64,000 bases of DNA from the NCBI RefSeq assembly GCF_000226975.2, contig NZ_CP019285.1, forward strand, positions 2,852,001 to 2,916,000. Reading direction: 5' to 3'. The notes beneath the pieces were generated by a model. It did no database searches. It saw nothing but the letters and a program-made list of their open reading frames with translations, and was not told the DNA's origin. Shown here one piece after another: positions 15,443 to 17,602 of this stretch; position 1 is the stretch's first letter, and every line of letters starts with the position of its first letter. The translations under genes were made by a program, and so were the position numbers. The stretch is from Halobiforma lacisalsi AJ5. GTDB taxonomy: Archaea > Halobacteriota > Halobacteria > Halobacteriales > Natrialbaceae.

Positions 15443-17602
15443 TCACGTCTCGTACCCGGACAGGGTCACCTCGCCGAAGGTGACGAACGACGTGGTGCCC
15501 GCCGGATGGGGCAACTGGTCGGTCGCGGCTTCCATCAGCAGCCACGCGATCACGCGTTCGCCCTGGATCGGGTCGCCGTCGACGTACTGTGCCGGGTGGT
15601 AGAACGACGATTCGACGTCCATGTCGTCGATACGCTGTTCGACGCCGATTTCGCCTTCCTTGCGCCTGACCACGACGAGTTCCTTGTCGTGATCGAGGGG
15701 AACGTCGATCGTCTCCGAGCCGTTCGGGTTCGTGAATCGCGCGATCATGCCGGGTTCGCCCTCGACGTAGAACTCCCCGTCCGGTCTGACCCACTCGTCG
15801 CCGTCGAAGACCTGGACGTCGACTCCCTCCGTCGTCCCCGGCGTTACGTCCATCGCGATACAGGAGATGTAGTGCTGGACGACGCTGTCGTCGTCCTCCC
15901 CGACGTATTCGGTGACGAAGCCGGGTCCCTGTCGACGCCAGACCGGCATGAAGACGCCGTCGTCGTAGAAGTCGTAGGAGATGTCGTAGTTGTAGGGGCC
16001 GAAGCGGTGACCGGAGTGGAAGTCCTGACTCGAGCGCCCGTGCGCGCCCGTGTGATAGTGCGACCGGAACCGGAAGCCGGCGGGGCGACCCGGCTCCTCG
16101 GGGTACTCGATGACGCCGATCGGGCCTGGGCCGCCGAAGTCGACGCTGTGGATGTCCCAGAACAGCAGATCGCCGTTGAAGACGGGTTCGTCGTCCGGGA
16201 AGAACCACTCGCGCGTGTTTTCGTCCCCCCGCGGCGGAAGCATGTACCCGGTGTAGGTCACCGGGGTATCCAGGGTCTCGAACACCGGCCGACCGCGGTA
16301 GGAGGCCGTCACTTCGATCCCGTGAACCCCGGGCGGTTCCCAGTCGATGTTCCACCCCGCTCGGTCGAACGAGTCTTCGGGTTCCTCGATCCGGTGGAAA
16401 CCGTCGTTTGCAGTGTACCACGGCCGCTGCTCGAACGGAACGTCGGGGAGCTCCCCGACGACCGATCGATCCGCCGTGGCGACGCGGTCGGCCAGTTCGT
16501 TCGGCGGGTACTCGACGAACCGATCCATCCGGACGACGTCGACCACTTCGCCGGCCTCGTCGTCGCGAACGTCGAGGTAGGCCGCAACTGCTGTGAGTCC
16601 GTCGTCCCCGACGACGAACAGGACGATGGGGCTGACCCCCGCGTGTTCGATCCCGCGTGCGGACGTGATCTCTTCGGCGACCTTGAACAGCGGATACCAG
16701 TCGTTGCCCTCGATCTGGTCGCGGACCCGCGAATCCTCGAGCGCCGTCCGCAGGCGCGCTTCGCCGAGCTCGTCGGCCTCCCAGGCCGTCCAGGAGACGT
16801 CGTGCGGTTCGGTCACCGTCGCCCCGACGAGTTCGTCCCGTTCCCGATCGACGAGCCCGTAGGCGACCTGCCGATCGCGGACGGTGACGTCGAACGCCCC
16901 TTCATCGATTCCGCCCTCGATCTCGACGGCCGGGCTCCCCTGCACGCTGATCGCGTCGAGCCGTTCCGTGAGCGCGTCGTAGGCTTCGAACCCCGACAGG
17001 AAGTTCCCGACGACCTCGTTTACGTCCGGGTCGGACAGCAGGACCTCGAGCGCCCGTCGCTTACGGTAGGTGTACAGCATCTCGTAGTTCGAGTTGTCGA
17101 GGTCCCGTACCGACAGCCGCCGAGCGTCGAGCGACTCCGTTCCGCCGCTTTCCGCCTCGGTCTCGTCGCCGGCCACATCGATCCGTCCCCGCATCGATTG
17201 GCTGTGTGGCTCGCAGTAGTACTCGCTCATCTCCTCGCTCGCGACGAACTCGACCGTCTGACTCTCCTCTTCAGTCGAGACGAGGTCGGTCGGACCGACG
17301 AGGTCGTTGCCGGCCTCGTCCTCGATGGCGAAATTGTGCGCGACGCCGTCGACGTTCGTCCACGTGAGGGTGTACTCCGCACCCGGCTCGAGCACGAGCG
17401 TCGGGTTCGTTTCGCCCTCGATCTCGGCCGGCGCTCGCCCGACCCAGCCGCTCGTTTCCCCGCCGAGGCGAATCTCGCCGTCCTGCCCGAACGCTGTCCC
17501 GCTTACACCCATCGCGGCTCCCGCACTGGCTGCCGTCTGCATGAACCGCCGCCGATATACCTCTCGTACGCTCCCGTTATCGCCATTGGTATGTTTTACC
17601 AT
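15443..17602 (-). CDS. Tat-exported cupredoxin fused to a copper-amine-oxidase-like region
   Basis: Predicted exported copper protein of 719 residues. The start is placed at the ATG at 17602, giving a compact Tat signal (RRRFM at residues 17-21, then a hydrophobic Ala/Gly segment). Residues about 40-145 are a type 1 cupredoxin with all ligands: H89, then C130-x2-H133-x3-M137. Residues about 190-719 resemble copper amine oxidase, with N2/N3-like segments, RGRPVFETLDTPVTYTGYML, and a candidate topaquinone site N538-Y539-D540 followed by YDFYDDG. The usual His-x-His copper pair is not clear: VQHYI has one histidine (H577). It may oxidise amines and pass electrons to its own cupredoxin, or be a non-catalytic relative. 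The gene stands alone between the ribosomal run and tRNA-Gly; a TATA-like TTTATT lies about 28 nt upstream. Confidence 0.65.
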   Translation of the reverse strand: MVKHTNGDNGSVREVYRRRFMQTAASAGAAMGVSGTAFGQDGEIRLGGETSGWVGRAPAEIEGETNPTLVLEPGAEYTLTWTNVDGVAHNFAIEDEAGNDLVGPTDLVSTEEESQTVEFVASEEMSEYYCEPHSQSMRGRIDVAGDETEAESGGTESLDARRLSVRDLDNSNYEMLYTYRKRRALEVLLSDPDVNEVVGNFLSGFEAYDALTERLDAISVQGSPAVEIEGGIDEGAFDVTVRDRQVAYGLVDRERDELVGATVTEPHDVSWTAWEADELGEARLRTALEDSRVRDQIEGNDWYPLFKVAEEITSARGIEHAGVSPIVLFVVGDDGLTAVAAYLDVRDDEAGEVVDVVRMDRFVEYPPNELADRVATADRSVVGELPDVPFEQRPWYTANDGFHRIEEPEDSFDRAGWNIDWEPPGVHGIEVTASYRGRPVFETLDTPVTYTGYMLPPRGDENTREWFFPDDEPVFNGDLLFWDIHSVDFGGPGPIGVIEYPEEPGRPAGFRFRSHYHTGAHGRSSQDFHSGHRFGPYNYDISYDFYDDGVFMPVWRRQGPGFVTEYVGEDDDSVVQHYISCIAMDVTPGTTEGVDVQVFDGDEWVRPDGEFYVEGEPGMIARFTNPNGSETIDVPLDHDKELVVVRRKEGEIGVEQRIDDMDVESSFYHPAQYVDGDPIQGERVIAWLLMEAATDQLPHPAGTTSFVTFGEVTLSGYET

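Follow-up and report, generated by a model that had tools for sequence, protein, structure and literature searches.

Whether a haloarchaeal cupredoxin has been joined to a working amine oxidase, to a decayed one or to something else is the question raised by a single gene of Halobiforma lacisalsi AJ5, which we examined within a window of 64,000 nucleotides (the whole stretch of DNA analysed). The first-pass annotation described its product as a Tat-exported cupredoxin fused to a region resembling copper amine oxidase (CAO), forming either a self-contained extracellular amine oxidation unit or a carrier attached to a degenerate oxidase. The gene begins with an ATG at 17602, 24 bases downstream of an alternative TTG start, and is laid out as follows (window positions):

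15443..17602, minus strand: whole gene, encoding an exported cupredoxin joined to a CAO-related protein (719 aa; 719 codons, no stops)
17486..17602, minus strand: Tat signal, residues 1–39, with RR at 17–18 (TIGR01409)
17165..17485, minus strand: cupredoxin domain, residues 40–146 (PF00127 and ligand positions)
17120..17164, minus strand: linker, residues 147–161, with the fastest change at residues 147–160
16820..17119, minus strand: N-terminal part of the family domain, residues 162–261, conserved in unfused relatives and matching no named family
15920..16819, minus strand: CAO-aligned region, residues 262–561 (hhalign score 50.0–50.7)
15446..15919, minus strand: C-terminal part, residues 562–719, only loosely alignable with CAO (forced alignment, 28 reliable columns)

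The N-terminal half of the first description holds in full. In an NCBIfam scan of the window protein, the Tat signal domain reaches 17.6 bits (cut-off 16.7), and the twin-arginine pair is invariant across the aligned family members (50/50). Copper-bind (PF00127) matches residues 78–143 at 25.6 bits, above its curated cut-off of 21.2, and ligand mapping locates all four type-1 copper ligands:

17336-17338, minus strand: H89
17213-17215, minus strand: C130
17204-17206, minus strand: H133
17192-17194, minus strand: M137

All four fused members of the family retain Cys, His and Met at the equivalent positions. A scan of genome contigs matched cupredoxin relatives only. A close relative of this cupredoxin also stands at the C-terminus of proteins of 460–520 aa (L003:382-1827, L038:3798-5360, L039:3912-5300), one of them in the window's own genome, whose first 360–410 residues match no Pfam family.

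Beyond the Tat signal and the cupredoxin, neither Pfam (E up to 10) nor NCBIfam names anything in the window protein, and the family to which it belongs is large and undescribed. The window protein finds matches in 194 of 391 haloarchaeal-class genomes, mostly through the cupredoxin. A hand count among the matches listed puts its C-terminal domain in no fewer than 43 of these 391 genomes; scoring was limited to two candidates per genome, so the figure is a minimum. The window genome holds a second, unfused copy (L002, 53%). Family genes on named plasmid records are called 'hypothetical protein' where annotated, RefSeq likewise terms them hypothetical, and scans of viral contigs found no relative. 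A literature search by title and start of abstract returned nothing on the family; no literature was found joining CAO with haloarchaea, nor any on DUF7405, a family encoded beside some of the relatives.

The main family alignment started from 53 sequences that blastp matched to the C-terminal region, was reduced to 50 members by excluding three truncated ORFs (L059, L061, L062), and was extended to 55 with five more distant members from G339, G258, G303, G328 and G233, which we designate subfamily 2. The short ORFs L061:8034-8546 and L062:7998-8423, from two genomes, match only family residues about 552–719 and are probably remnants. The same cupredoxin is fused in 4 of the 50 aligned members, drawn from three genomes (the window protein, a G292 member 81% identical to it, and G297 C2 and C1 at 69% and 62%), which rules out an assembly accident as the origin of the fusion; the G297 C2 gene is also present on a named public plasmid, that of Natronococcus sp. 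AD-5. All four lie within one nine-row clade of the tree, on which fusion costs two changes, and most unfused members have short N-termini of Tat or lipoprotein type. A closely related cupredoxin also occupies the N-terminus of an oxidoreductase in Halostagnicola larsenii (WP_049954330.1), although the catalytic domain there is PF07995 (PQQ-type sugar dehydrogenase), unrelated to the window domain by Pfam scans; fusing this type of cupredoxin to an oxidoreductase is therefore a recurring design.

The relation of the C-terminal region to CAO is visible in profile–profile comparison, whereas single-sequence and HMM searches miss it in all but one member. Pfam Cu_amine_oxid (PF01179) leaves the window protein unmatched even at E up to 10, and only the distant member L060 matches it, at E 0.044, below the cut-off and elsewhere in the domain. 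The 55 members were compared with 23 CAOs, comprising 14 haloarchaeal and nine plasmid-borne bacterial sequences (L064 and L076 were excluded; L187, one of the nine, lacks the N-[YF]-[DE] motif-printing pattern and was retained), and hhalign aligned residues 262–561 with a score of 50.65 after removal of mostly-gap columns. The score had climbed with added diversity through 30.7, 32.2, 38.5 and 50.0, the first value being for 50 members against haloarchaeal CAOs and the last for 55 members against all 23. None of the decoys reached 50.65, whether column shuffles (0/150, maximum 28.4), reversed-block shuffles (0/150, maximum 26.4) or unrelated neighbour-gene families (0/55, maximum 22.8), and a reversed control scored 16.4. 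Because hhalign's own probability for the family against CAO is only 69–71%, we grade the homology of the C-terminal part to CAO as well supported, not proven. The resemblance first noted thus stands as a well-supported homology that outscores all 355 controls, but a weak one that PF01179 does not register in the window protein. The window genome has no PF01179 match of any kind at E up to 10, and true CAOs occur in 19 of the 195 genomes of the organism's order.

Whether the CAO active site is retained was assessed at the following residues:

16244..16246, minus strand: Y453, opposite the CAO VPYG Tyr (Y304 of L063), posterior digit 5
16154..16156, minus strand: D483, facing D345 of L063, an Asp that does not vary among the haloarchaeal CAOs; 55/55, posterior digit 9
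16052..16060, minus strand: H515-x-H517; in the main family H515 in 49/50 and H517 in 44/50
16016..16018, minus strand: H529; 46/50
15986..15994, minus strand: Y537-N538-Y539, with Y537 at the topaquinone position; Y537 in 49/55, posterior digit 9
15872..15874, minus strand: H577, the earlier candidate copper ligand; His in 22/50
15596..15598, minus strand: H669; 50/50 in the main family, 0/5 in subfamily 2 (Asp there)

Passages of PMC3382800 portray the CAO active site as unusually strict, with three strictly conserved copper His, a catalytic Asp base and a strictly conserved active-site Tyr touching the topaquinone. The register of our alignment is anchored on G-x-Y-x-Y...D-G, which sets CAO G-N-Y-D-Y over G535-P536-Y537-N538-Y539 and the CAO run Asn-Tyr(TPQ)-Asp-Tyr over P536-Y537-N538-Y539 (posterior digit 9). 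The residue facing the quinone-forming Tyr is Y537, in the context P-Y-N, and N538-Y539-D540, put forward earlier as the candidate topaquinone motif, is two residues out of register. Y539 and its flanking Asn are indeed conserved (44/50 and 45/50), but as parts of a Y-N-Y element rather than of an N-Tyr-D motif, and the Thr, Asn and Asp/Glu of the CAO topaquinone consensus are replaced by R533, P536 and N538.

None of the three copper-binding His was recovered by mapping. The CAO-type His-x-His that follows the motif is absent at the CAO position in the family alignment; H577, taken at first as its one clear remnant, is excluded as a ligand, being His in fewer than half of the members and replaced by Gln in the closest relative (81% identical across the whole protein); and the third copper His falls over about T694 in a low-confidence forced alignment of the last third, which has only 28 reliable columns. 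H669 was considered for this third position and rejected, since the CAO His lies near T694 in the forced alignment and subfamily 2 has Asp at 669. The CAO Asp base (D318 of L063) falls weakly over P473 (posterior digit 1). D483 was likewise rejected as the base, as it aligns with a different Asp, D345 of L063. Y453 is found in 50/50 main-family members and is a gap in 5/5 subfamily-2 members; the Tyr that it faces, Y304 of L063, is presumably, from its VPYG motif, the strictly conserved active-site residue. Judged by alignment, then, the window protein does not qualify as a CAO strictly defined, because topaquinone consensus, copper His and Asp base are all absent. What it shares with CAOs of the E. 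coli TynA type (PF01179) is the homology of residues 262–561 in profile comparison, a Tyr at the topaquinone position and probably another at the conserved active-site Tyr position.

The best fit to these observations, to which we give a probability of roughly 0.45, is an exported oxidoreductase derived from CAO, with an altered active site, that hands electrons to its own cupredoxin. The C-terminal part would descend from the CAO fold, whose copper site and topaquinone consensus it no longer has, and its catalytic centre would be remodelled around Y537, Y539, H517 and probably Y453. Most likely a small extracellular substrate would be oxidised there, either an amine or some related compound that yields an aldehyde, and the electrons would pass to the type-1 copper of the N-terminal cupredoxin and on to the respiratory chain, so that the protein would not act as a plain oxidase. 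The fusion, the four cupredoxin ligands, the statistical homology to CAO, the loss of its hallmarks, the purifying selection and the neighbours of unfused relatives are observed, whereas its enzyme status, substrate, electron path and cofactor are inferred. Oxygen-using CAOs differ from such a dehydrogenase with intrachain transfer to type-1 copper. The proposed electron path resembles that of methylamine dehydrogenase and amicyanin, in which amine oxidation delivers electrons to a type-1 copper protein; fold and cofactor are different there and the carrier is a separate protein. A more specific proposal, which we regard as doubtful, is that a new active site has arisen on the CAO fold, with H515, H517 and H529 clustered in a moved position beside Y537/Y539, possibly as a metal–Tyr or quinone centre, in a dehydrogenase feeding the type-1 copper of the same chain. 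A strict three-His site is disfavoured by subfamily 2, in which H517 and the Tyr pair are retained but positions 515, 529 and 669 all lack His. Of the self-contained amine oxidation unit first envisaged, the fusion of a carrier to a CAO-related domain stands, whereas a working topaquinone enzyme of the known type is not supported, its hallmarks being absent.

A serious rival, if on balance an unlikely one, holds that the CAO-related domain is non-catalytic and serves as a scaffold binding a substrate or partner, leaving the cupredoxin as the sole redox centre. It accords with the absence of every CAO hallmark residue tested and with the maintenance of a clade that has lost the Tyr pair and H517, even in cupredoxin-fused form: the fused member L041 belongs to this Tyr-lost clade and retains its cupredoxin. 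It sits poorly with the redox genes adjoining unfused clades and with the joint retention of H515, H517, H529, Y537 and Y539 in 44/50 members, the remaining six lacking H517, Y537 and Y539 together; with subfamily 2 included, each of these three is present in 49/55. The joint loss is one event on the tree, hence a single observation, so the co-loss is not strong proof. Against the G292 relative, residues 395–719 give a dN/dS of 0.073/0.713, about 0.10, compared with 0.166/0.896 for the cupredoxin and 0.528/0.777 for the linker. The CAO-like domain is not decaying and is under strong purifying selection, and with this ratio and conserved residues of its own, a degenerate oxidase is not its best description.

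A redox role for the family is suggested by the neighbours of unfused relatives. In clade B, a halocyanin gene (PF00127 at 3e-15; TIGR03102) lies directly upstream and is divergently transcribed in 10/19 tree rows, and an aldehyde dehydrogenase gene (PF00171) lies within four genes in 6/19 (both raw tallies); public annotation places both products beside the unfused gene of Haloarcula sinaiiensis. The unfused gene of Halorubrum sp. PV6 sits amid genes for an aldehyde dehydrogenase, a halocyanin, paaC, paaD and another gene of phenylacetic acid catabolism, a setting that resembles the tynA-feaB-paa arrangement of E. coli, the phenylacetate context being that of a single locus. Two points count against the oxidoreductase reading here: halocyanin adjoins only these 10 of the 19 clade B rows, and the fused genes keeping the Tyr pair (window, G292, G297 C2) have no common neighbour and no adjoining partner genes. 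At the window gene itself, the flanking run, which we take from its sequences to encode ribosomal proteins and an RNA-methyltransferase-like ORF, does not consist of pathway partners.

Other parts of the family show further associations. An unnamed, multi-copy small protein is encoded alongside in 6/6 rows of the Tyr-lost clade (raw tally); its genes are in tandem and divergently transcribed, and the products have no Pfam match (L041:5397-6985, L056:5610-7183 and five more loci). Distant members of the subfamily-2 type at L144, L146 and L147 have ammonium transporter and P-II genes in their vicinity, with a hemB-type gene just upstream in L144 and L147, and the distant members L143:4962-6062 and L145:7004-8110 are directly followed by a gene for a PQQ-type glucose/sorbosone dehydrogenase.

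Clade A differs in its partner: a gene of the DUF7405 family, whose product matches DyP at its C-terminus, stands directly downstream in 16/16 tree rows (raw tally; 15 via clustering and one via tblastn). At L165:7775-9049 and the 15 other clade A loci, the DUF7405 product carries the motif G-F-R-S-G, with Ser at the DyP Asp position; classical DyP peroxidases have G-x-x-D-G. This constant adjacency is what a working, peroxide-making oxidase would have in its favour, with the DUF7405 partner using or removing H2O2 and the fused cupredoxin otherwise employed, for example in copper supply. We consider it improbable, as the DUF7405 motif departs from that of DyP and the fused Tyr-pair genes have no DUF7405 neighbour.

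It is very improbable that the CAO homology is an artefact and the domain of another fold. The missing Pfam match of the window protein would agree with it, as would the PDB sequence searches, in which the window protein retrieved cupredoxins plus a weak match due to chance and the family profile a single chance hit, and the useless single-sequence AlphaFold model of residues 395–719 (mean pLDDT 33.5); the decoy-calibrated hhalign score and the independent match of L060 to a different part of PF01179 argue against it. A conventional CAO, with copper and a topaquinone at Y537 or Y539 oxidising amines with oxygen, is more improbable still: Y537 and probably Y453 do occupy the right positions, but the consensus Thr, Asn and Asp/Glu have given way to Arg, Pro and Asn, the surroundings of the poorly conserved H577 contain no His-x-His, the Asp base falls over P473, and other haloarchaea possess true CAOs in which every hallmark is present.

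What is new here is that a known fold family and a known carrier come together in a protein whose active site lacks the marks of the established enzyme. If the oxidoreductase reading is true, the family would show the CAO fold changing its chemistry, with the Tyr position kept, the copper ligands dropped and a type-1 copper protein fused or adjacent, and it raises the questions of what the changed site contains and whether haloarchaea carry out extracellular amine oxidation with a cupredoxin as acceptor.
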